Positions 8,147 through 64,000 of a DNA stretch of 64,000 bases are shown piece by piece. The translations under genes and the position numbers were made by a program. How positions within the stretch are numbered: the first letter of the stretch is position 1; each line of letters opens with the position of its first letter. Source of the stretch: Hungatella sp. (GTDB taxonomy: Bacteria > Bacillota > Clostridia > Lachnospirales > Lachnospiraceae); contig WASS01000020.1 in NCBI GenBank assembly GCA_009712635.1, forward strand, positions 1 to 64,000. The letters are read 5' to 3'. Below the pieces are notes generated by a model, which did not search any database, was not told where the DNA came from, and saw nothing but the letters and a program-made list of their open reading frames with translations.

Positions 8147-10021
8147 TTACCTTTCTGCCAATTGTTTTTCTGTAAACAGTACGTAAGGCAGCCGAATGGT
8201 CATGGTAGTAAATTCACCTTGCCGGCTGGTAATTGTAATTCCGTATTCTGAACCGAAATCATACTGAATCCGCTTGTTTACATTACTAATGCCTACGTGC
8301 CGGAAGAACTCCGTTTTGTTATGAGAATCGGTATCTTCCCGAAGTACTTTCTCGATCATTTCCTCCGACATTCCGATTCCGTTATCTGTCACACGGATCA
8401 TCAGTCCTTTTTCTCCAGCAATTTCTTCCGCTTCAGCTGATACAATGATCCTGCCTGCCGCTCCTTTTGGTTCGATTCCATGAAATAGAGCATTTTCAAT
8501 AATGGGCTGAAGAGAGAACCGGTGAATCTGGCAGTTATATAGTTCATCGGACTGAATCTGATATTCAATGGTCACACTGCCGCCGTAACGGTACTGCTGT
8601 ATTAAAAAATAGTCCTTAATAAGATCCAGTTCTTCTCTCAGCGGAATCATGGATGCAGTTCCTTTGGATACGTTCTTTAAGAGCCGGGCAAGGGCAGTTG
8701 TCATGTCTGCGATGCCTCCCGCATTCTGAATGGTCGCCATCCACTTGATGGAATTCAGCGTGTTATAGAGAAAGTGAGGATTGATCTGGCTTTGAAGAAT
8801 CTGATATTCCAGATCCTTTTTCTGTTTTTCATCGGACACACGTTTTTCCATCAGCGTGATAATATTGCCGGACATGTTATTAATTCCTCTGCCGATCTGA
8901 CCCAGCTCATGATTCCATTCAATGGTACTGTCTCTGGAAAAATTTCCGGTTGAAATACTGTCTATCTTATTACTCAGCTTATGGATTGGCTCCATAATAA
9001 AGCGGTTTAAGAAGAATGCAAGCAGGATTCCCATAGAAACAATAAAAAAGCAGATGCCGATAATCAGCAGTGTATATAAATTCTTTTGCTGTTTAAACTG
9101 CTGTTCTGATAAAATCTGGGATATACTCCAGTCGTTGACTCCATCTATGGGACGTTCAATAAGAATTCGCTTTTCTCCGCCACTCATGGTTACAGAGTGA
9201 ACCTGGGTGCCTGCCAAGAACGATTCCTTTCTGGCTGAATTTTCGGAAATCTCATAAGGCTTTTCCGTTTCTACCAGGGTATTGGACTGAAAACGATAGG
9301 TTTTCTCTCCCATATTAATGAAAAACAGACTGTCATCCGGAAGGGGATAGGTTGCCAGATAGTCCGTAAACAGTCTGGTTGAAATTTCAACATAAGTCCA
9401 TCCGATGATTTCCGAATTAAATTTGTCATATACGGGACGTACAATTGGAATGAATTCTCCCTGAGTGATGGATGATAATGGGTCATGAATCAGCCCGATC
9501 CATAAAAAATCGTCAGCATGAAACAGAGGTTCAAAAAAATCGCTCTTCCTTATTAGTTTGGCAGCATAAGGAGAAGAGGTGCTGACGGAAGATGTCATAT
9601 GGAGAAAGTTATTTTCATTATTTGTAGAAACGATTGCACGTATATATTTGTAGGAACGGGTTTTATAATATTCTTCTTTCAGACGGTTATGGGTGGAAAG
9701 AGCCATTGGCCGTAAATTGCTGGAATCATTGGAAGCTGTTGGAAGCTTGTTTACATCTTTAAACGCTTCCAGATAGTCCTGTATGACTCCATTGGAGCAG
9801 CACCATTTACTGAAATATATGATATCCTTCATGTCTGTTGCTATGTTATTGCTCACAACCTGCAGACTGAATTCTGCAGACTGAACCTGATTTCTTCTGA
9901 GAAATAACTGAAAGACTGAGAAACAGACTGTGGTTGTAAGGACTGTGATAAGCAGCGTAACGGCTGCCGTCAAAATCATGATTTTGCCTCGAATAGTTTT
10001 TGGAATTATTGTTTTCCACAT
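8147..10021 (-). CDS. YesM-type sensor histidine kinase
   Basis: About 624 residues. One N-terminal membrane helix (about 15-37), a long extracytoplasmic sensor (about 40-295), a second helix (about 298-320), HAMP (about 320-375), the His_kinase domain with the phospho-accepting histidine in QSQINPHFLYNTLNSIKW, and an HATPase_c domain (IIENALFHGIEP; TDNGIGMS). The track-independent start is uncertain: TTG at 10033 lies one base after the AAAGGA site, while ATG at 10021 is 14 bases from it; ATG 10021 is given. It probably senses an extracellular oligosaccharide or a loaded binding protein and phosphorylates the adjacent YesN-type regulator. Confidence 0.9.
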   Translation of the reverse strand: MWKTIIPKTIRGKIMILTAAVTLLITVLTTTVCFSVFQLFLRRNQVQSAEFSLQVVSNNIATDMKDIIYFSKWCCSNGVIQDYLEAFKDVNKLPTASNDSSNLRPMALSTHNRLKEEYYKTRSYKYIRAIVSTNNENNFLHMTSSVSTSSPYAAKLIRKSDFFEPLFHADDFLWIGLIHDPLSSITQGEFIPIVRPVYDKFNSEIIGWTYVEISTRLFTDYLATYPLPDDSLFFINMGEKTYRFQSNTLVETEKPYEISENSARKESFLAGTQVHSVTMSGGEKRILIERPIDGVNDWSISQILSEQQFKQQKNLYTLLIIGICFFIVSMGILLAFFLNRFIMEPIHKLSNKIDSISTGNFSRDSTIEWNHELGQIGRGINNMSGNIITLMEKRVSDEKQKKDLEYQILQSQINPHFLYNTLNSIKWMATIQNAGGIADMTTALARLLKNVSKGTASMIPLREELDLIKDYFLIQQYRYGGSVTIEYQIQSDELYNCQIHRFSLQPIIENALFHGIEPKGAAGRIIVSAEAEEIAGEKGLMIRVTDNGIGMSEEMIEKVLREDTDSHNKTEFFRHVGISNVNKRIQYDFGSEYGITITSRQGEFTTMTIRLPYVLFTEKQLAER

Positions 10022-54733: not shown

Positions 54734-55300
54734 ATGGAGAAGGTTAATATTAATCCGGATTGGGTATTTAGTCCGCAGCCAATGTATATCATTGGAACAA
54801 AAAACGAAAATGGCACTCCAAATTTTTGCATTATCACATGGATAGGATTTTCATTTGATAAGACACCACATTTAATGATGACGATAGGCGGAAGCAAGCT
54901 TACCAAGTCAAACATACTTCGGGATAGAAAGTTCTCTGCTAATATGATTACTGAGGATAATCTATGGCTTGCAGATTACTTTGGTAATACGCAAGGTGAG
55001 GATGTGGTGAAAAATAGAGTATCTTACAGCTATGAATGGGGTAAATGCCTGGAAGTTCCTATGGTAGAGGAATGTCACTGGGCATATGAATGTGAAGTTT
55101 CCAAAATAATTGAGCTTGATGGTGCCCATCTATTTCTGGCTGAAATAAAAAATATTCAAATTGATAAAAAATATGAATCCATGGATCTGAAAAAAATAGA
55201 TTTAACCGAATTGAAACCTGCAATCTATGCACCTTATCATTATTTTTCCATCGGAAAGAAATTAGGTGAGATGGGTGAATGGGAACAATACATTGAGTAA
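54734..55300 (+). CDS. Flavin reductase-like FMN-binding protein
   Basis: 188 residues, split-barrel flavin reductase domain: PMYIIGTKNENGTPNFCIITWIGFSFDKTPHLMM, then NILRDRKFSANMITEDNLWLADYFG. The family reduces FMN/FAD with NAD(P)H or acts as an electron carrier. It ends 40 bases before the convergent DNA ligase gene; no terminator hairpin is evident between them. Confidence 0.88.
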   Translation: MEKVNINPDWVFSPQPMYIIGTKNENGTPNFCIITWIGFSFDKTPHLMMTIGGSKLTKSNILRDRKFSANMITEDNLWLADYFGNTQGEDVVKNRVSYSYEWGKCLEVPMVEECHWAYECEVSKIIELDGAHLFLAEIKNIQIDKKYESMDLKKIDLTELKPAIYAPYHYFSIGKKLGEMGEWEQYIE

Positions 55301-55340
55301 ATTTATATGGAAACAGGATATAAGAAGCCTGGGTGGCCGC

Positions 55341-56264
55341 TTATATCCGGCATTCGATTGCCGATTTATCGTCTCTGATACCTTTAAATACTGGCTGGCG
55401 AAAGCTGTCTTTTTCGGTCGGCATAGACTCAACAATACATACCAGCTCTGGCGCCAGCCAGACAGCGTCATCATTGCCTTTAGGCACATAACCAAAAGGC
55501 GAATAGTCAATAATCTGATACTTATGCTCATTTAAAATCCTGAGACTTACTCCCAGGGTAACATGTCCCTTGTAAACTAGTAAATCATCGTCGTATTGAC
55601 CCAGTATAAGGCTGGTCATGTTATTTTCCTTTGGTATATAACCGCAGATAACACAATCATCAGAAGCCATTATTTTACACTTAATCCAATCTTTCGATCG
55701 ATTCCCCGGCCAGTACAGGCTGTCTTTTCTTTTTGCAACAATTCCTTCTAACCCTTTTTCTTTTACAAGATTAAATAACATAATTCCATTATTCTCAACG
55801 TATCGGGAAACAGAGATCAGATTATTCTCGATAACCACATTATCTAAATATTTCTTTCGTTCCATAAGTGGGAGCATGGTGATATCTTTATCTTTGTAAT
55901 ATAAGATATCGTAGGCGATAATACTGGCGGGATATTTACTGGCAGCTAATTTGATTTTAAACTGGTTACTCATTAATGCTCTTTTCTGGACTTCGTAGAA
56001 ATCGGGTATTCCGTTTCTAAGGACTAGTAATTCATGGTCCAGGATGCACTTTACTTTTACCTGTTTATATAAGTCTTCCAGTTCCGGAAAGAGAGGTATC
56101 ATTAATTTATTTCTTTTATTTCGCATATCAGTTTTATCGCTTAAAAATGACAAGCATCGGATACCGTCCCATTTTATCTCATAGATATGATCTGGTGAGT
56201 CAAATGGGGCTTTCATCTCAGATATCAGCATGGGACTTACATTCTTACTGTCAAATAGATCCAT
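55341..56264 (-). CDS. ligD: ATP-dependent DNA ligase (LigD ligase-domain type, NHEJ)
   Basis: 307 residues, ligase and OB domains only; polymerase and nuclease domains of the large LigD are absent. Motif I YEIKWDGIRCL with the AMP-accepting Lys31, motif III-like IIAYDILYYKDKD, motif IV GLEGIVAKRKDSLYWPG and motif V DWIKCK. C-terminal OB fold (about 205-300). Overlaps Ku by one base (TGATG), making a two-gene end-joining unit. Confidence 0.9.
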   Translation of the reverse strand: MDLFDSKNVSPMLISEMKAPFDSPDHIYEIKWDGIRCLSFLSDKTDMRNKRNKLMIPLFPELEDLYKQVKVKCILDHELLVLRNGIPDFYEVQKRALMSNQFKIKLAASKYPASIIAYDILYYKDKDITMLPLMERKKYLDNVVIENNLISVSRYVENNGIMLFNLVKEKGLEGIVAKRKDSLYWPGNRSKDWIKCKIMASDDCVICGYIPKENNMTSLILGQYDDDLLVYKGHVTLGVSLRILNEHKYQIIDYSPFGYVPKGNDDAVWLAPELVCIVESMPTEKDSFRQPVFKGIRDDKSAIECRI

Positions 56265-57040
56265 CAGGCTAATCCTTTTGTACCTTTTGCCATTTCAACT
56301 GTTCTCTTCATGGCTTCCATCAGGTCAATGATATTATTCTGGCTTTCCGTATCTGCGTTTACAATCTCTTTGCCTGCTATTTTTGTTTCAATCGCCTGCC
56401 GCAGTCTTTCCTGGTATTCGTCATGATAAAGACCAGGATCAAAAGTAGAAGTCATGGAATCAATTAAAGTTTTCGCCATATCTATTTCTGCCTTATTAAC
56501 TTCTGCCTTGGCTGTTGCAACCGGCACAGCCTGAATTTCTGCCTGGTAGAAAAGTGTTTTTGCAATAATTCCGTCTTTTGTCGGGTACAAAACCATTAAA
56601 TTCTCAGTGGATCCGATTACCGTTTTGGCAATACCGACTTTCTTTTGTGAAAGCATTGCCTGACGCAGTAATTCACAGGCTTTCTCTGCTCCAGGCTCAG
56701 GAACAACATAATAATTCTTCTCATAATAAATTTGATCCACATCTGTTAATTTTGCAAAATGCTCAATATGGATTGTTTTATCTTTCTTGGTCTTGATTTT
56801 TTCCAGTTCATCCTCCGTAAATGTAACATACTTACCCTTTTCATATTCATATCCTTTAATGATTCCGTCAGGCTCCACCTCTTTATTACAGGAGGGGCAG
56901 ATTTTTTTGTATTTTACCCGCTCATGAGTATCTTTACAAAGCTGATTAAAACTAACAGAAATATCTTTTGTGGTTTTATATAATCCAACGGGGATATAGA
57001 GCATTCCTACACTAATTGCACTTTTATGAGCTACGGCCAT
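56264..57040 (-). CDS. ku: Bacterial Ku protein (NHEJ)
   Basis: 258 residues. Core: AVAHKSAISVGMLYIPVGLYKTTKDISVSFNQLC, zinc-type CPSCNKE (about 49), KGYEYEKGKYVTFTEDELEKI, and the KLTDVDQIYYEKNYYVVPEPGAEKAC segment; short C-terminal tail ending GTKGLA. A homodimer that threads on double-strand ends and recruits LigD-type ligase. GGAGGCG upstream of ATG. In many Firmicutes this pair is spore-specific; here it follows the two WYL regulator genes by 71 bases. Confidence 0.95.
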   Translation of the reverse strand: MAVAHKSAISVGMLYIPVGLYKTTKDISVSFNQLCKDTHERVKYKKICPSCNKEVEPDGIIKGYEYEKGKYVTFTEDELEKIKTKKDKTIHIEHFAKLTDVDQIYYEKNYYVVPEPGAEKACELLRQAMLSQKKVGIAKTVIGSTENLMVLYPTKDGIIAKTLFYQAEIQAVPVATAKAEVNKAEIDMAKTLIDSMTSTFDPGLYHDEYQERLRQAIETKIAGKEIVNADTESQNNIIDLMEAMKRTVEMAKGTKGLA

Positions 57041-57111
57041 TGTAACGCCTCCTTTTATTTTTATTATTGTTTGATAAAAGAATAAAAATATTCATTACGG
57101 AGTGAGAATGA

Positions 57112-58086
57112 TCATTTCCTAACCGGTAACTGCTGCCGGTTAACCCGCTCCATAACCTGTTTTAAAAAAGGAGCTGGTCCAATCACTTTTACCACCGGAC
57201 CGAATGCAAGCACTTGAATTAACAGTTCGGTTTCCCTGGTTTTGTCATAGTAAATGGAACAGAGGTATTTTCCCGTTTCATCCATCCGTTCCACTTTTTT
57301 CTGATAACTGGAAAAATGAAGCATGGTTCTTTCCAATGCATTGCGCTCATCTGAAATTTCCATGACCAGCGGTTCCTGGCAGAGTGTATCATCTGCAAGT
57401 TTGTCTATTCGGACTGGTTCTTTTATGTAATATCCTGTTTCTTCTATTTTAACAATTCGTCCAATGTGTAAAACATCCATGCGCCAGCCATTTCTTCGTC
57501 TATAAAGGGCGTAAAGCCGAAACTTGCCATCTTTGGCGGAATACTCAATCCAGCAGGGAAGATAAGTAAACTCAATCAGCCGCTGTTTGACTGAATAATA
57601 GGAGATTTTAAGGGTCTGGTGTTGTTCCACCGCCTTTAAAATCAGCTGAAAATGTTGCCGGAAAGAGGCGTTTATCACATCGTGATCCTGAAATTGATCA
57701 AAATAGTGAAAGGCTGATGGATCATATAGCGGTGAGGTATCTGCTAATTCCTGCCGAAGCAGTTCCAGCTGTTCGTCAGTAAAAAACAGACTGATCCGTT
57801 CGTCTTTAAGCAAAACTTTCAGCCAGGATTTTTGAAGAGAAGTCAGGGGAAAACGAACGGGATTGCACAGACGTGAAGTGAAATTTTTACCGCTGTCATC
57901 AGGTGAAAGCAAAGCCCAGTCCCCACTTATCAGATGGGGGATGATTGACAATGCACTTTCATCGTAACCATATCTTTGGGTAATTTCCGTCATCTCGTTC
58001 TGGCTGACAGGCTTATGTGCCGCTTCTTCCAGTATTCGGGCGACAACCTGATAATAGCAATTATATATTTCTGAAAAGAGTTCCAT
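57112..58086 (-). CDS. WYL-domain regulator 2
   Basis: 324 residues from ATG 58086, with AGGAGG about 13 bases upstream; it begins 1 base after the stop of the other WYL gene, so they are translationally coupled. N-terminal helical region without a clear canonical HTH, and WYL domain (about 150-230; KISYYSVKQRLIEFTYLPCWIEYSAKDGKFRLYALYRR) plus WCX-like C-terminus. WYL domains bind ligands, often nucleic acid or nucleotide-derived, and control defence and repair genes. Confidence 0.85.
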   Translation of the reverse strand: MELFSEIYNCYYQVVARILEEAAHKPVSQNEMTEITQRYGYDESALSIIPHLISGDWALLSPDDSGKNFTSRLCNPVRFPLTSLQKSWLKVLLKDERISLFFTDEQLELLRQELADTSPLYDPSAFHYFDQFQDHDVINASFRQHFQLILKAVEQHQTLKISYYSVKQRLIEFTYLPCWIEYSAKDGKFRLYALYRRRNGWRMDVLHIGRIVKIEETGYYIKEPVRIDKLADDTLCQEPLVMEISDERNALERTMLHFSSYQKKVERMDETGKYLCSIYYDKTRETELLIQVLAFGPVVKVIGPAPFLKQVMERVNRQQLPVRK

Positions 58087-58087
58087 G

Positions 58088-59353
58088 TTATTGTCCTCCT
58101 GAAGGTATTGTATCAATATTTTCCCAGACATACATCTGCTGCATTTTCTTCATATCACTCCAGAAACGTTGTTCCACCTGTTTATTTGAGCAGGTGAAAT
58201 CAAGAATTCGTCCGGTGAAGGTTCTGATCCAGGGAAGTATTTCGGCGCTGTCCCAACATTCAATGGTATATTCATAAATATCTGGCTGTATCCGCTTCAG
58301 CTGGCCTTGCCGGCCTTCCCGGTTGATCCTGTTAATTAGATAGCTTTCCGTCTTTTCTTCTATACTGAGCTGCAAGCATATTTGTTCCGGTTCCCTGTGG
58401 CAGCCAAACGAAACGCCCCAGATATAATCGCTGTTATTCTCGTAACCGGCCAGATACCGGTCGTAATTTATATCTGATTTAAGAAGGGATACATTTTGTA
58501 TGCTGTCCAGCCGATACGAAGCCAGACGACCGTTTGTCAGTCTTCGCACACATACGTAGCGGCGGCCGGTCTGGGTACTGATCCGTATTTTTAAGGGCAC
58601 ACACTCAAATTCATTGATATTACCGCTTCGAATATATCTGATCTGCATGAGTACTCGCTGTTTGTCCCTTATGGCTGAAAGAAGCGGAAGTAAAATCTCA
58701 TCCTCCAGGGTGTGAGCCAGATAGTCATGTCGAAACCGAAAGTGGTCGTTTCGGCATCGCAGTGAATCCAGAATGGTACTACCAATAAAACCAAAGGGAG
58801 CAGCAGTCTGATAATAGGAGGCCGCTTCTTTTAGACCATGATATAAATCCGGATGACTGGTCAGCAAATCCGTGCAAGCCGTATACAGGTGCTGACGACC
58901 TTCTTTTTTTACTGAGAACAGTCCGTTCTGCTCATATTCTATCAGCTTCTTGCGAACAGTCTGCACCTCAAACAGAGTCAGGTAGCGTTCCTGTAATTCA
59001 TCATTTATTGTTTCCACACTACGTGATTTTCCGTCCTGCATCAGATCCAGAAGAAAAAAGTGCAGCATGATATCATTATTTGTAAAGCTTTTACTTTTCC
59101 ATACATGAAATAAGGGGTTACTGTCAATTCGGTTACTGTCCATGGTGATGGCAATTGATTTCTTATGGCTGGAGTCATAATCATACTGAATGTAATCGGC
59201 AAACCAGCTTTCGATCCGCCTGCGTTCATTATCATAAGTGCGTCTGCCAGATTCCGGATAATCCATACGGGATTTAAACCCATAGACATAAAAATCACGT
59301 ACATAAGTGCGTACTTTATTAAAATGTTTGATCAATTCATTAAATTCTGCCAT
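58088..59353 (-). CDS. WYL-domain regulator 1
   Basis: 421 residues from ATG 59353 (CAGGAGC upstream); the in-frame TTG at 59371 overlaps this site. N-terminal winged-helix-like DNA-binding region (about 60-140: VETINDELQERYLTLFEVQTVRKKLIEYEQNGLFS), WYL domain (about 195-280: LLSAIRDKQRVLMQIRYIRSGNINEFECVPLKIRISTQTGRRYVCVRR), C-terminal WCX-like region. It is transcribed divergently from the RtcB gene. Pairs of WYL regulators next to RNA-repair genes are known in the literature; likely the sensor of RNA damage for this island. Confidence 0.85.
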   Translation of the reverse strand: MAEFNELIKHFNKVRTYVRDFYVYGFKSRMDYPESGRRTYDNERRRIESWFADYIQYDYDSSHKKSIAITMDSNRIDSNPLFHVWKSKSFTNNDIMLHFFLLDLMQDGKSRSVETINDELQERYLTLFEVQTVRKKLIEYEQNGLFSVKKEGRQHLYTACTDLLTSHPDLYHGLKEAASYYQTAAPFGFIGSTILDSLRCRNDHFRFRHDYLAHTLEDEILLPLLSAIRDKQRVLMQIRYIRSGNINEFECVPLKIRISTQTGRRYVCVRRLTNGRLASYRLDSIQNVSLLKSDINYDRYLAGYENNSDYIWGVSFGCHREPEQICLQLSIEEKTESYLINRINREGRQGQLKRIQPDIYEYTIECWDSAEILPWIRTFTGRILDFTCSNKQVEQRFWSDMKKMQQMYVWENIDTIPSGGQ

Positions 59354-59500
59354 GTATTTTAGCTCCTGCAAGTTTAAAATGTGTTTATTTAATCTATTAT
59401 ATATGGATAATAGTTAAGTTCGCAACTTTTTTTAAATGATTAAAAGTATTCACAGTGCTATGATATAGCCATGGTAAGAAATGGAAACGGAGGAATCAAT
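59354..59500. promoter_or_regulatory. Divergent control region between WYL regulators and RtcB
   Basis: 147 bases, AT-rich, with inverted repeat AAGTT-CGC-AACTT at 59416-59428 in the middle, a candidate operator for a WYL regulator. Plus-strand -10-like TATGAT/GATATAG is near 59460-59466. No sigma-54 box of the E. coli rtcBA type was found. The RtcB ribosome site ACGGAGG lies 8 bases before ATG 59501. Confidence 0.5.
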
Positions 59501-60187
59501 ATGTTTGTTATTTATAATGAAAAAACAAGAAAACCAATCAAGGTATGGCTGGAGAATATAGATCAGATTGAAAAAGGTTGTTTGGAGCAGGCGTATCACC
59601 TGGCTGATCTGCCATTTATACATAAGTGGGTTTGCCTGATGCCAGATACACATACCGGAAAGGGAATGCCCATTGGCGGAGTGATCGCCACCCAAGGTGT
59701 TATTATGCGCGTTAAAGATATTGTGACAGAGAAAATTCAGAAATATTCAGATCAGAAGGTTGTATTCGGTGAGGAAATTAACTGTCACCATAACTATGCG
59801 TCTTTGGAGAATCATTATGGTAAAAATGTCTGGGTACACAGGAAAGGTGCCACCAGGGCACGGAGCGGTGAGCTGGCAGTGATTCCCGGTGCAATGGGAT
59901 CTTATAGCTATGTGGTAAAAGGCAGGGGCAATGAAGAAAGCTTTTGCACCTCCTCTCATGGTGCGGGACGTGCTTATTCCCGAAAGGGTGCAATGGAAGC
60001 GTTTAGCTGTGAAGACGTATTAAATGATCTGAAAGAACAGGGCATCGTTCTTGGCAAAACAAAAAAGGCAGATGTGGCAGAAGAAAGCCGCTTTGCTTAC
60101 AAAGATATTGAAGCTGTGATGGGGAATCAGAATGATTTGGTTGAGATTGTATCTAAATTAAAGACCATTGCAGTAGTAAAAGGATAA
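59501..60187 (+). pseudogene. rtcB: RtcB RNA ligase with a large in-frame internal deletion
   Basis: 228 residues from ATG 59501 (GGAGG before it), against about 400 for full-length RtcB. N-terminus is intact to VCLMPDTHTGKGMPIGGVIATQGV (about residue 67). It then jumps to MRVKDIVTEKIQKYSDQKVVFGEEINCHHNYASLEN. The missing piece is the one that in complete RtcB carries the Mn-binding VDIGCG and GTGNHF motifs. The guanylylated histidine region TSSHGAGRAYSRKGAM (His about 153) and the NCHHNYA motif remain, and the C-terminus is normal. The frame is kept, so it may still be expressed, but ligase activity is doubtful. It overlaps no other gene and leads into the non-coding RNA region. Confidence 0.8.
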
Positions 60188-60216
60188 TGATCTGCTATAT
60201 ACCAGCGTTAAATGCT

Positions 60217-60383
60217 GGATGGTGCCGGCTGTCATACAGTTCGGTATGCCGCGGAAATTATATAAATGCGAGGTGGAAAAAACCACAAGATCGCCCAAAT
60301 GATTATTTGCAGGTTCGAATCCTGCCGGTTATGAAACCGATTCTCAATGGTAGAGAGATCAAACAGACACCTGTCAAGTGTCC
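60217..60383 (+). ncRNA. Putative YrlA-type Y RNA (tRNA-mimic) downstream of RtcB
   Basis: Elements in order: anticodon-like strand TGATT (60300-60304); 4-base link; T-arm GCAGG-TTCGAAT-CCTGC (60309-60325); closed acceptor-like hairpin CGGTT-ATGA-AACCG (60326-60339); two bases; D-arm TCTC-AATGGTA-GAGA (60342-60356); GATCA (60357-60361), pairing with TGATT. T-loop and D-loop carry the canonical bases (TTCGAAT; GG) for the elbow. The order T-arm, acceptor loop, D-arm, with ends emerging from an anticodon-like stem, is that of YrlA Y RNAs. Flanks have hairpins GTGG-aaaaaa-CCAC and GACAC-CTGTCAA-GTGTC. Exact ends are not known. Confidence 0.65.
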
Positions 60384-60402
60384 AACTTAATGAAATGTAA
60401 AT

Positions 60403-60705
60403 ATGGTATCTGTCAGCCAGCTTGCTTTCAATGCCAGAAAACCGTCATTCTCAGTTTTTTGGAGATTTCCGGTGTTGGTATATGATGTAACTATGGCAGC
60501 AGAGCAGCAGCTTTGTACTGGTCGTTTCCTTTCGTACAGTTTCCGGTCCCATTTCCTGCAGGATGGAGAGTCGAAGAAGGCTTTCCTGGCAGCAGGAAAC
60601 CGGATCAGAAACCAGGCTTAGGCCGGTCAGTCCGCAGTTTCTCTGAGGCAGATACCAGACTTACATTCCCAAACAAAAAATAATATAAATAAGAGGTAAC
60701 AAACT
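60403..60705 (+). other. Second non-coding structured stretch before the slipin gene
   Basis: No credible gene is seen. A long stem is present: TTTCCTGC (60552-60559) with GCAGGAAA (60592-60599), extended after a 5-base bulge by CCGG (60543-60546) with CCGG (60600-60603). It could be a second small RNA of the same locus (Salmonella has two, YrlA and YrlB), or part of the slipin leader. Bases 60660-60705 hold the slipin RBS AAGAGG. Confidence 0.45.
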
Positions 60706-61809
60706 ATGAAATATATAATTAATCAGAATGAGTGTGGTTATTTAATGAAAAACGGTGTTTTTATCAAAACCTTATACTACGGTAAGCATCGCTATTCCAG
60801 AACGTTCGGTTATCAGGTAATTATTGAAAAGATGGAAAACATGGTTGATTTTGAAATATTGCCCATAGAGGTATTGTTAAAGGATCAGTCATTTGCTGAT
60901 AGAATTTTACATATTAAGATTCCGGAGGGGCACATCGGCATTTTGCGATATAATGGTGTGGTGCAGAAGGTGCTGACTGAGCCTGTATATCTGTATTGGA
61001 ATAACTGGAAACAATATGAGTATGAGCTTTTAGATATGAGAGAGACGAAAATGAAATCAGAAATCGCAAAATCCTGTCTGGCTCATATTCCGCTAAAATA
61101 TTATAAGAAAGTGGAGATTAAAACAGGTGAAACTGGTATTCTATTTTTCGACAATCAGATTGTGGGAGAATTAGCGGCAGGTACTTATTATTACTGGACC
61201 TATGCCAAGGATGTATTATGTCAGGTAATTGATTTGAAAACTAAAACATTAGAGATAAACGGTCAGGAGATCCTGACTGCCGACCGAATCGGCATCAGAG
61301 TTAATCTGCTTTGTACATACCGGGTTACTCAGGCACAAAGAATGCTTGAGACCATAAAGAATCTGGAAACTCAGCTGTATGCCTGCGCGCAGCTGGTGGT
61401 AAGAGAATATATCGGTTCCTATCGTCTGGATGAGATTTTAGAACAGAAAGAAGAGATCTCAGGTTTTATCTTTGCACGGCTGAAAGAGGTTCAGGAGGAC
61501 TACTGCGTAGAATATTTGACTGCCGGTATAAAAGATATCATATTACCAGGAGAGATCCGGGATATTATGAATACTGTACTGATTGCAGAGCGGAAAGCAC
61601 AGGCCAATGTTATCACCAGGCGGGAGGAGGTGGCTTCCACCCGTTCACTGCTCAATACGGCAAAGTTAATGGATGAGAACAAAACTCTCTATAAACTAAA
61701 GGAGTTAGAGTGTCTGGAACGTATTTGTATGCAAGTAGGTAATATCAATGTAGCAGGCAGCGGCGCATTGCTGGGACAGCTTAAGGAGTTAATGGGTAGT
61801 GGTGTATAA
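60706..61809 (+). CDS. Slipin / band-7 (SPFH) family protein of the RNA repair island
   Basis: 367 residues. SPFH-type region (about 120-330): KYYKKVEIKTGETGILFFDNQIVGELAAGTYYYWTYAKDVL, LTADRIGIRVNLLCTYRV, YSLDEILEQK-like YRLDEILEQKEEISGFIFARLKEVQ, ending in AERKAQANVITRREEVASTRSLLNTAKLMDENKTLYKLKELE, a typical slipin coiled coil. The first 110 residues look like a second, degenerate copy of the same start. No obvious N-terminal membrane helix. SPFH proteins form ring-like oligomers on membranes; slipins recur next to RtcB in bacterial genomes, but their role in RNA repair is unknown. Confidence 0.88.
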   Translation: MKYIINQNECGYLMKNGVFIKTLYYGKHRYSRTFGYQVIIEKMENMVDFEILPIEVLLKDQSFADRILHIKIPEGHIGILRYNGVVQKVLTEPVYLYWNNWKQYEYELLDMRETKMKSEIAKSCLAHIPLKYYKKVEIKTGETGILFFDNQIVGELAAGTYYYWTYAKDVLCQVIDLKTKTLEINGQEILTADRIGIRVNLLCTYRVTQAQRMLETIKNLETQLYACAQLVVREYIGSYRLDEILEQKEEISGFIFARLKEVQEDYCVEYLTAGIKDIILPGEIRDIMNTVLIAERKAQANVITRREEVASTRSLLNTAKLMDENKTLYKLKELECLERICMQVGNINVAGSGALLGQLKELMGSGV

Positions 61810-62860
61810 TAAAAAAACAGGTAGGGGGCAGATAAGAGAACATGAAAGACTTCAAAAAATTCATTCAGCTGAATATGATTTTCTTAGAAAACACGAAAGA
61901 TTGGGAAAAAATATTATCCTGCTTGGTCTGGGTGGCAGTTACGCATACGGAACAAACAATGAGAACAGTGATATTGATTTCCGTGGTATTACTCTCAATT
62001 TGCCTTCCGATCTGATTGGCTTAACAGAATTCGAACAATATGAGGATACAAAGACAGATACAGTCATTTATTCATTTAATAAGATAGTAAGATTGTTGCT
62101 TGAGTGTAATCCAAACACCTGTGAGATTCTTGGACTGGATGAAGACCAGTATTTGATTAAAACAAAACTGGGTCAGGAATTACTTGATAATAAGGGGCTT
62201 TTTCTCTCCAAAAGAGCGGCAAAATCTTTTGGAGGATATGCAGGTGCACAGCTGAGACGTCTTCAAAATGCAATAGCCAGGGATTCTATGCCTCAGACAG
62301 AAAAAGAGATACATATCTTAAATTCCGTCAAAAATGCACTGGAGGATTTTCAGCGGCGTTATGACAGCTTTGATCAGGGAAGCATTCATCTTTATATTGA
62401 TACAGCCATAAACCGTGAATTTGACACAGAGATATTTGTAGATGCCTCGTATAAGCACCTGCCGCTGCGTGATTATGAAAACATGTGGTCCGTTATGCAT
62501 AATGTTGTTAAGGATTACGATAAGATAGGAAAACGGAACAGAAAAAAGGACGACAATCATCTGAACAAGCACGCCATGCACTTAATCAGGCTGTTTATGA
62601 TGGCAATTGATATATTGGAAAAGGGTGAGATTAACACCAGCCGGAAGAATGACCTGGATTTGCTTAAAAAGATAAGGAGCGGCAGTTTTCAAAGGGAAAA
62701 CAAAACATTTGACAGTGAATTCTATGATATACTTGCAGACTATGAAGGCAGGCTTGAGAAAGCAATAAAGGTGAGCGTTTTACCAGATAATCCGGATATG
62801 GATAAAGTAGAGGCGTTCGTTGAATATATCAACAAAAAAGTGATAGAGGGTGATTATTGA
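61799..62860 (+). CDS. RlaP-like polymerase-beta-fold nucleotidyltransferase 1
   Basis: 353 residues with a GTG start overlapping the slipin gene by 11 bases; GGAG 10 bases upstream. Catalytic motif LGLGGSYAYGTNNENSDIDFRGI (about 40-62), that is GS...DxD, then EQYEDTKTDTVIYSFNKIVRLLLECNPNTCEILGLDE, and a helical C-terminal half (about 130-350) with HLNKHAMHLIRLFMMAIDILE. NTases of this group (RlaP: RNA-ligase-associated Pol beta) occur in RtcB operons and are thought to add nucleotides to damaged RNA ends. It ends with a one-base overlap with its partner. Confidence 0.85.
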   Translation: MVYNKKTGRGQIREHERLQKIHSAEYDFLRKHERLGKNIILLGLGGSYAYGTNNENSDIDFRGITLNLPSDLIGLTEFEQYEDTKTDTVIYSFNKIVRLLLECNPNTCEILGLDEDQYLIKTKLGQELLDNKGLFLSKRAAKSFGGYAGAQLRRLQNAIARDSMPQTEKEIHILNSVKNALEDFQRRYDSFDQGSIHLYIDTAINREFDTEIFVDASYKHLPLRDYENMWSVMHNVVKDYDKIGKRNRKKDDNHLNKHAMHLIRLFMMAIDILEKGEINTSRKNDLDLLKKIRSGSFQRENKTFDSEFYDILADYEGRLEKAIKVSVLPDNPDMDKVEAFVEYINKKVIEGDY

Positions 62861-63621
62861 TGTTTGATATCAGCAAAGAAATCCAACAAAAGTTGTTGGA
62901 AATTGAAAGTAAAGAAACGGTTAAAATATTGCATGCAGTGGAGTCAGGAAGCCGTGCATGGGGATTTGCATCGCCGGATAGTGATTATGATGTCCGATTT
63001 ATTTATATCAGGAGAAAGGAAGATTATCTTAAATTAAATGAATCAAAGGATGTGATAGATTGGCAGCTTGATGAAGTGCTGGATATCAATGGCTGGGATT
63101 TAAAAAAAGTATTAAAACAGTTTTACAGGGGAAATGCAACTTTATTTGAATGGAGTAATTCCCCGATTGTATATAAGACTACTGAATCATGGAAACAGAT
63201 ATATGATGAAGCAAAAAGCTGCTTTTCAATAAAAGCAGCAGCATACCATTATTATGGTACTGCAAAAAGCACATATATTAAGTACTTGCAGGAAGAGTCT
63301 GTGAAGTATAAAAAATATTTCTATGCATTAAGACCTTTGCTTGCAGGAAAGTATATACAGGAATTTCAGTGTCCGCCTCCGGTATTATTTGATGATCTTA
63401 TGAAAATGAATATTCCGGCAGAACTTCGTAATGGAATTGAAGAGTTGCTGGAAATCAAAAAAAAGAGTGATGAAAAAGAAAAGGGTGCACAAATTTCAGT
63501 GATTCAGGACTTTATTATCAATGAATTAGAAAATCAAAAAACTTATGTGGAAAGCATTTCGGATGATAGAAAACATGAGTGGGATGATTTGAATGATATT
63601 TTTCTGAAAACTGTGGGTTAA
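62860..63621 (+). CDS. rlaP: RlaP-like nucleotidyltransferase 2 (PF10127 family)
   Basis: 253 residues from ATG 62860, sharing one base with the stop of the previous gene. Hallmark AVESGSRAWGFASPDSDYDVRFIYIRRKEDYL (about 26-57), GS and DxD as metal site, followed by DVIDWQLDEVLDINGWDLKKVLKQFYRGNATLFEWSNSPIVYK, matching the RlaP/YcgL-type family (predicted RNA-repair nucleotidyltransferase). C-terminal helical part (about 115-250). Same operon as the slipin and NTase 1. Confidence 0.9.
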   Translation: MFDISKEIQQKLLEIESKETVKILHAVESGSRAWGFASPDSDYDVRFIYIRRKEDYLKLNESKDVIDWQLDEVLDINGWDLKKVLKQFYRGNATLFEWSNSPIVYKTTESWKQIYDEAKSCFSIKAAAYHYYGTAKSTYIKYLQEESVKYKKYFYALRPLLAGKYIQEFQCPPPVLFDDLMKMNIPAELRNGIEELLEIKKKSDEKEKGAQISVIQDFIINELENQKTYVESISDDRKHEWDDLNDIFLKTVG

Positions 63622-63733
63622 AAATATATCGCGCAGCAAGGCACTATTTTGGTTAATAGTTGCATTTATACACAATAGATGATAAGTTAATTACTATAAA
63701 GAGATAACTTACGCTTGAAAGAGGTGATACAAA

Positions 63734-63937
63734 ATGAGTAAATACAATGCTTTATGGGAATACGTCCAGAAAAATGGAAGTCCATCCTTCAAACTGACAT
63801 TTGATGAGATCGGCGAGATCGCAGGAATACCTTTAGACCACTCTTTTTTGACATATAAGAAAGAACTGGCTGAATATGGCTATCAGGTAGGAAAGATATC
63901 CATGAAAGAAAAAACGGTTATCTTCAATGTTTTATAA
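63734..63937 (+). CDS. Small DUF7662-like protein
   Basis: 67 residues. Pattern MSKYNALWEYVQKNG then KLTFDEIGEIAGIPLDHSFLTYKKE, a short winged-helix-like domain seen in many bacterial operons (DUF7662). AAGAGGTG lies before ATG, 113 bases downstream of the nucleotidyltransferase gene. Role unknown, possibly nucleic-acid binding. Confidence 0.7.
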   Translation: MSKYNALWEYVQKNGSPSFKLTFDEIGEIAGIPLDHSFLTYKKELAEYGYQVGKISMKEKTVIFNVL

Positions 63938-63954
63938 GTAAGGGGGAATCTTCT

Positions 63955-64000
63955 ATGAAGGAAAAAGCAAAAATTAAGGGAAAATTTACTGATGGTGACC
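63955..64000 (+). CDS. Start of a gene cut by the window edge
   Basis: ATG 63955 with AGGGGG 9 bases upstream opens a frame with 15 residues visible (MKEKAKIKGKFTDGD). Too short to identify. Confidence 0.6.
   Translation, partial: MKEKAKIKGKFTDGD

Follow-up and report, generated by a model that had tools for sequence, protein, structure and literature searches.

The closest described counterpart of the RNA reported here is the bacterial Y RNA YrlA, whose long basal stem, formed by the ends of the RNA, tethers Ro60/Rsr (available part of PMC8394870). TROVE proteins have been described as an RNA repair platform with a tRNA-like partner, and the nucleotidyltransferase RlaP is predicted to restore lost nucleotides ahead of ligation (both in the sections available of PMC7824862). 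An SPFH protein, PaFlo8, is located in the rtc locus of P. aeruginosa (excerpts of PMC13086221), and an Anabaena strain with trcR deleted shows a joint rise of a slipin gene and rtcB (excerpts of PMC10272220).

The window analysed here is a stretch of 64,000 nucleotides from Hungatella sp. (Lachnospiraceae; contig WASS01000020.1), whose relevant features are listed in Table 1. Its RNA shares with YrlA (RF02553) the permuted T arm, the closed acceptor-like hairpin, the D arm and an outer stem, and with YrlA of Salmonella the location in an rtcB locus. In contrast to YrlA it is about 450 nt long, with its own 5' hairpin, an anticodon-arm-like hairpin and a 3' rod; a slipin takes the place of Ro60, the long basal stem is found only in YrlA, and a pair of WYL proteins stands where Salmonella has RtcR. 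tRNA genes with a circularly permuted arm order exist, and the arm order of the RNA is likewise a circular permutation of tRNA. Unlike in these genes, the acceptor helix is capped by a 4-nt loop and has no tRNA ends, and the outer strands are not joined by an anticodon; the RNA is not a tRNA precursor.

Table 1. Genes and RNA elements of the locus, in window coordinates
Feature	Position	Strand	Composition or basis
WYL-domain protein A, divergent from operon	57112..58131	-	Pfam WYL 0.0027 (under cut-off), PADLOC WYL 2e-11
WYL-domain protein B	58088..59371	-	PADLOC WYL 6e-10
RtcB RNA ligase gene, shortened	59501..60187	+	Pfam RtcB 7e-62 in two stretches
5' hairpin	60220..60251	+	GGUGCC ... GGUAU; two-sided changes above shuffles in all four clades
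Outer (pseudo-anticodon) stem	60300-60304/60357-60361	+	TGATT pairs with GATCA; covariation alignment
T arm	60309-60325	+	GCAGG 60309-60313, loop TTCGAAT 60314-60320, CCTGC 60321-60325
Acceptor-like closed hairpin	60326-60339	+	CGGTT 60326-60330, loop ATGA, AACCG 60335-60339
D arm	60342-60356	+	TCTC 60342-60345, loop AATGGTA, GAGA 60353-60356
Anticodon-arm-like hairpin	60366-60382	+	GACAC 60366-60370, loop CTGTCAA 60371-60377, GTGTC 60378-60382
3' domain	60400..60661	+	closed by long-range helix 60400-60414/60647-60661; analogous rods in the other three clades
Slipin (Band 7)	60706..61809	+	three beta repeats in tandem, then an SPFH domain and a long helix; lacks a membrane segment
RlaP-like nucleotidyltransferase 1	61799..62860	+	Pfam RlaP 4e-16
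RlaP nucleotidyltransferase 2	62857..63621	+	Pfam RlaP 4e-86

Structure and covariation of the tRNA-like core

The core is the tRNA-like domain of the bacterial Y RNA YrlA, with permuted T, acceptor and D arms. All strands on which the first-pass annotation had based its proposal of a YrlA-type permuted tRNA mimic are present in the window letter by letter, and the structure itself is backed by covariation. Relatives were retrieved via the slipin gene in a scan of genome contigs, and the best 80 of at least 590 were used. In these 80 loci we searched up to 900 nt upstream of the slipin for a T arm with five of five pairs and the loop TTCRA, which was found in 72. It was not found in L079, L089, L096, L098, L101, L125, L143 and L144, of which L096, L101 and L125 have less than 900 nt of upstream DNA. 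The core alignment A2 comprises the window and 63 of the 72 T-arm loci (64 sequences); the nine omitted are L090 and L092, which have long hairpins, and the divergent loci L135 and L137-L142.

RNAalifold, to which the helices were not supplied, returns the outer stem, the T stem, the acceptor-like hairpin and the D stem from these 64 sequences. Pairing is found in 96.0% of 1080 cells, and two-sided changes occur at 14 of the 17 core pairs: four of four in the outer stem (89.5% of cells paired), four of four in the acceptor-like helix (96.9%) and three of four in the D arm (96.5%). The T helix and T loop do not count as independent evidence, because they served as selection criteria, whereas the other three helices are independent. 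The number of two-sided cells (281) compares with a shuffled mean of 86.3, and the covariation score of 0.676 with 0.163 in shuffles, none of 500 of which reach it. With partners slid the score stays at or below 0.165, which argues against kinship as the sole source of the excess. The permuted core structure is conserved beyond chance, and the compensatory changes in relatives that had been set beforehand as a test were thus found. The D-loop GG, present in 64 of 64 aligned sequences, is the second half of the tRNA elbow signature and complements the T loop TTCRA. In the window sequence folded alone, TGATT enters a small local hairpin and the outer stem is not formed. ARAGORN finds no tRNA gene in the window.

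A structured RNA of about 450 nt

The structured RNA spans about 450 nt (about 60203-60661), and the core makes up just its middle part. The extent of 60217-60383 given at first pass was far too short, as covarying helices reach 60661. The alignment from RtcB to slipin displays a strongly conserved 5' hairpin (GGUGCC, GGUAU), followed by the core, a further hairpin and, closed by a long-range helix, the 3' domain. Four clades were folded separately, namely 12 Lacrimispora/Hungatella-like sequences, 17 from other Lachnospiraceae, 15 Enterocloster/Clostridium/Blautia-like and nine Merdimonas-like ones. The 5' hairpin and a 3' rod are recovered in each of them, with helices above shuffles and letters that differ between clades; for these whole-RNA helices the shuffle is the only control, and kin sequences can exceed shuffles without structure. 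The closing helix of the 3' domain shows 13 two-sided changes versus 4.4 in shuffles (0 of 300), and a stretch of 491 nt folds 5.4 standard deviations better than its shuffles, none of 100 of which reach it.

The overall plan of the RNA is firm and its details are less so. The T, acceptor-like and D arms are recovered across the clade folds, with the D stem unlisted in the 9-sequence clade; a separate fold of the 12-sequence clade does not give the outer stem. The anticodon-like hairpin is unlisted in the 15-sequence clade, where the two outermost rod helices are weak (11 versus 6.5 and 10 versus 7.3 shuffled), and in the 17-sequence clade it lacks an excess of two-sided changes (2 versus 1.9 shuffled). 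The consensus helices 60204-60217 and 60272-60285 hardly form in the window sequence. In 55 of 73 sequences an exact GGTGCC occurs no more than 420 nt upstream of the T arm; for at least L116 and L131 the match is probably spurious. A promoter-like site was looked for on the plus strand just before the RNA, and none was seen.

The stem-loop GACAC-CTGTCAA-GTGTC with its GUC triplet had been left unexplained; it belongs to the same RNA as an anticodon-arm-like element. Each of the 12 sequences in the window's clade has a counterpart with a 7-nt loop, and the stem is kept, once through a two-sided change (L069). Loop positions 1 (C) and 6 (A) are constant, and the middle triplet is GUC in seven sequences, UCC in two, and ACC, GUU and UAA in one each. 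Outside this clade the loop frequently departs from 7 nt; the best hairpin has this size in 34 of 68 sequences, and many of these are a second T arm. A second T-arm pattern lies downstream in 31 of the 68. An anticodon of fixed identity was rejected as an interpretation, because the triplet varies within one clade and the loop size between clades. A by-eye search for a complementary partner of the loop gave nothing consistent.

The likely ancestor of the RNA is a junction between two tRNA genes in tandem. The first gene would have provided the T arm and an acceptor strand, and the second an acceptor strand and the D, anticodon and T arms. Such an origin fits the finding that real tandem tRNA junctions match the core model (see below), and it suggests a route by which Y RNAs may arise. 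L193, a locus from another family of the phylum, presents the T arm, the acceptor-like hairpin, the D arm and CTCGA-CTGTTAA-TCGAG in tRNA order.

Relation to YrlA and Ro60

In an Rfam scan of positions 55000-64000, YrlA is the sole plus-strand match on the RNA stretch (60301-60362, 31.9 bits, E 7.7e-4, cut-off 69); the eight further matches in the list are weak. YrlA is the best match to the core; of its model, positions 23-87 alone align in the window, and the score in this proposed check stays below the cut-off. Similar scores are obtained for L111, L080, L107, L128 and L116 (24.9-36 bits, under the gathering score of 69). At E 0.05 the model has matches in 248 of 299 family genomes and exceeds its cut-off in none of them; most of the matches listed have 31-37 bits over model positions 1-114. 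We rejected the Rfam YrlA score as evidence on its own, given the 248 matching genomes, and the analysis therefore went by the slipin locus.

A TROVE domain (Ro60, PF05731) was found neither in the source genome nor in any of the 17 family genomes with a slipin at E 1, in a search whose control gave a match in Deinobacterium chartae. The earlier remark that the window holds no Ro60 gene thus extends to the genome, and the partner of the RNA accordingly differs. The long Ro60-binding basal stem is absent as well; the consensus folds show an outer stem of just 4-5 bp. YrlA proper is also characterised by binding to Ro60 and PNPase and by D and pseudouridine modification. Strictly speaking, the RNA does not qualify as a Y RNA, because the basal stem is missing, the Rfam cut-off is missed and Ro60 was not found in the 17 genomes. 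Of the original designation as a Y RNA of an RNA-repair island, the island and the YrlA-type mimic stand, whereas the strict Y RNA identity falls with the missing stem and the 31.9 of 69 bits. We recognised no report of a slipin-associated Y RNA in the limited literature covered and in Rfam 15.

Neighbouring genes and the slipin

The neighbourhood is an RNA-repair island, as had been proposed: RtcB, two RlaP and two WYL proteins and the slipin are all found. The position of the RNA between RtcB and slipin is equally correct; RtcB, however, is shortened and not full-length. A comparison by blastn with L065, the Lacrimispora xylanisolvens locus that is the nearest relative of the window (slipin 97% identical), reveals that 546 nt are missing in frame at 59706/59707 with clean flanks, which may be due to a natural deletion or to an assembly fault. 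Given this kinship, the window probably derives from Lacrimispora. Both the RNA and the slipin seem undamaged, in keeping with a function for which the two can do without RtcB. Among the best 80 of at least 590 slipin loci, homologues of WYL proteins A and B are present in 55 and 58, respectively, and homologues of the two RlaP genes in just three and two. ORFs at 55341-57040 (minus strand), next to the RNA-repair locus, were judged by eye to be DNA ligase-like and Ku-like.

The slipin contains an SPFH (Band 7) domain (Pfam 6e-25; stomatin 3e-23), and beta strands are predicted at its N-terminus. Stomatins and slipins carry an N-terminal hydrophobic membrane hairpin. A membrane segment was not found in 15 of 15 slipins of this kind, whose maximum 19-residue hydropathy mean is 0.81-1.31. 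Like PaFlo8-type proteins, the Lachnospiraceae slipin is an SPFH protein within an RtcB locus; it differs from PaFlo8 by its extra N-terminal repeats and the lack of a membrane segment. The major vault protein (MVP) consists of nine tandem beta repeats, an SPFH-like shoulder and a long cap helix, and it forms a barrel-shaped particle that holds RNA. The domain order of the slipin is the same as that of MVP. A sequence match to MVP was not obtained up to E 10 with the profile of slipin alignment A1, from which G255 (stop inside) and G151 (fragment) are dropped and in which L048 is cut before its stop, nor was a vault family found in Pfam to E 1.

Distribution

A covariance model of the core (R1) scores above 50 bits in 67 of the best 80 of at least 590 slipin loci, always upstream and on the strand of the slipin. 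Loci outside the training set are included (L089 75.1, L090 68.6, L092 61.8 and L098 64.7 bits). In L079, L096, L101, L125, L140, L142 and L143 it reaches at most 16 bits or nothing. The distance from the core end to the slipin has a median of 359 nt and a range of 215-2861 (68 sequences), and that from the RtcB match to the core a median of 141 nt (49 loci with an RtcB match). The C-terminus of RtcB was not found upstream in 18 of the 67 core loci, where a divergent RtcB could be missed; of the RtcB-less loci L085 is cut short, L100 holds an N-terminal part and L073 has a distant downstream match. The RNA thus accompanies the slipin even at loci in which RtcB was not found. In L098 the RNA adjoins RtcB, and the slipin lies 2.9 kb away with an ORF between it and the RNA. 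The divergent slipin loci L135, L137-L139, L141 and L144 have R1 scores of 26-28 bits, with a different D arm in those read, and their RNA perhaps forms a separate subfamily.

The slipin is present in 17 of 299 family genomes, a set that overlaps with the 80 loci by at least six shared members (L077/G111, L079/G019, L098/G276, L107/G223, L123/G157 and L126/G013). The 13 best R1 matches in these genomes (63-79 bits) are all located at slipin loci; with that of G068 (48.2 bits), 14 of the 17 slipin genomes reach at least 48.2 bits. In the other three (G019, G165, G179) no match of this strength is located at the slipin among the matches listed, and G019, equivalent to L079, thus has a slipin without a detected RNA. 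Seven further matches (50-61 bits) lie away from slipin. ARAGORN finds no tRNA gene at the 20 loci above 50 bits, nor at L167, a slipin locus with 48.2 bits, whereas the other nine loci fetched (45-50 bits, up to 49.9) are real tandem tRNA genes. The filters of the R1 search in the family genomes were strict, and at least one weak match was lost (L189, 45.4 bits).

Outside the family, a slipin is found in eight of 398 genomes of the phylum, the source genome included. The core is recognised well in two of seven other phylum loci (L193 49.2, L194 44.1 bits) and weakly in three (12-21 bits); two are without it. Tandem pairs of the permuted tRNA unit, the core, are observed in L194 and also in L132 and L133; in the latter two the D arm of the second unit is presumably Leu/Ser-like. 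Ten IMG/VR virus stretches matched a peptide pattern, none of them related to the slipin.

Possible role of the RNA

We tentatively favour the reading that the RNA of about 450 nt is the RNA half of a slipin-based particle in the RNA-repair locus, in which the slipin replaces Ro60; this is quite possible, if not yet probable. It is supported by the conserved structure, the tRNA elbow signature and the constant place and strand upstream of the slipin. Proteins that normally handle tRNA would recognise the T-D elbow, and the 5' hairpin and the 3' rod would anchor the RNA to a slipin oligomer. The particle could then bring damaged tRNA, or the enzymes that cut and mend tRNA, close to RtcB and RlaP, and the WYL proteins may control the system. 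Further support comes from the SPFH protein in the P. aeruginosa rtc locus and the joint rise of slipin and rtcB in Anabaena. Points against it are the slipin without a detected RNA (L079/G019), the lack of a promoter-like site before the RNA, the outer stem, which the window sequence does not form by itself, and the anticodon-like hairpin, which has no excess of two-sided changes in the 17-sequence clade and whose 7-nt loop is not general. The location of the RNA beside a protein unlike the partner of its known relatives hints that bacteria may possess an RNA-protein particle of a new kind.

As a tRNA decoy or damage sensor, the RNA would bait anticodon nucleases with its anticodon-like hairpin and tRNA elbow, and RlaP and RtcB would then repair the cut ends, or the WYL proteins would bind them as an alarm. 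The 7-nt loop with a variable triplet in 12 of 12 sequences of the window's clade and the presence of RlaP and RtcB among the neighbours would suit such a function, which is nevertheless rather unlikely given that loop size and triplet vary across clades (7 nt in 34 of 68, many of them second T arms) and that the RlaP homologues are confined to three and two of the best 80 of at least 590 loci; moreover, YrlA fragments were not detected in Salmonella, according to the available part of PMC7790460. A cis-acting leader, that is, a tRNA-like element controlling slipin translation or read-through, is unlikely. Its location upstream on the slipin's strand in all 67 matches at a median of 359 nt, the lack of a visible promoter of its own and a sub-threshold cobalamin riboswitch match overlapping the RNA of L107 (20.5 bits, cut-off 31.5) speak for it; against it are L098, with the RNA beside RtcB and 2.9 kb and an ORF away from the slipin, the occurrence of the same core next to unrelated proteins elsewhere, and the fact that neither the window nor five loci gave a leader family at its cut-off.

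That the RNA is a canonical YrlA of a Ro60 particle is very unlikely and largely refuted by the missing basal stem, the score below the Rfam cut-off and the failure to find TROVE in 17 slipin genomes, even though the tRNA-like domain is shared and YrlA is the best Rfam match to the core. There is next to no probability left for two fragments of decayed tRNA genes, the alternative named at first pass. It draws on the tandem tRNA junctions, to which the core model gives up to 49.9 bits, and is refuted by the 281 two-sided compensatory cells; changes of this kind in every helix, the constant locus and the empty ARAGORN scans at the 20 loci above 50 bits point the same way.

The slipin-based particle would have a bearing on the origin and purpose of vaults, if slipin and RNA indeed form one. 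As in the vault (MVP, and TEP1 with a TROVE domain), a structured RNA is found beside an SPFH protein of the same domain order, and TROVE-like parts are suspected in cousin loci; in contrast to the vault, the slipin has three repeats and not nine, the RNA mimics tRNA and the particle is hypothetical. A vault-like ribonucleoprotein, with an SPFH shell around or with the RNA of about 450 nt that arose from tandem tRNA genes, a function in tRNA quality control beside RtcB, and TROVE-like or TerD proteins instead at the cousin loci, is a speculative and quite improbable extension. If true, the vault parts (MVP, TROVE protein, small RNA) would be alternative partners of one bacterial RNA family. 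In any case, a YrlA-type tRNA mimic is used here outside Ro60 particles, within a larger RNA of its own architecture, and the locus of RtcB, RNA, slipin and WYL proteins represents a tractable system for the role of such RNAs.

Cousin RNAs at other loci

Cousin tRNA-mimic RNAs are located at 9209-9303 in L175, 9412-9509 in L176, 9231-9324 in L177, 2816-2911 in L178, 1436-1534 in L179 and 8718-8814 in L180. With the exception of L178, they adjoin intact proteins of the TerD-domain type, which possibly carry a TROVE part; the candidate for this fold is the protein of L176. The core is flanked on both sides by an AGCUA.....UUACUUCU-like motif in L175-L178 and by a GGCUAU.....UCCAUCCUUCUAUU-like motif in L180. 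In L181, a locus from a member of the family, a core RNA (8860-8948) lies upstream of a DUF2828/DUF7788 protein, which we take to be a possible Ro60-like partner.
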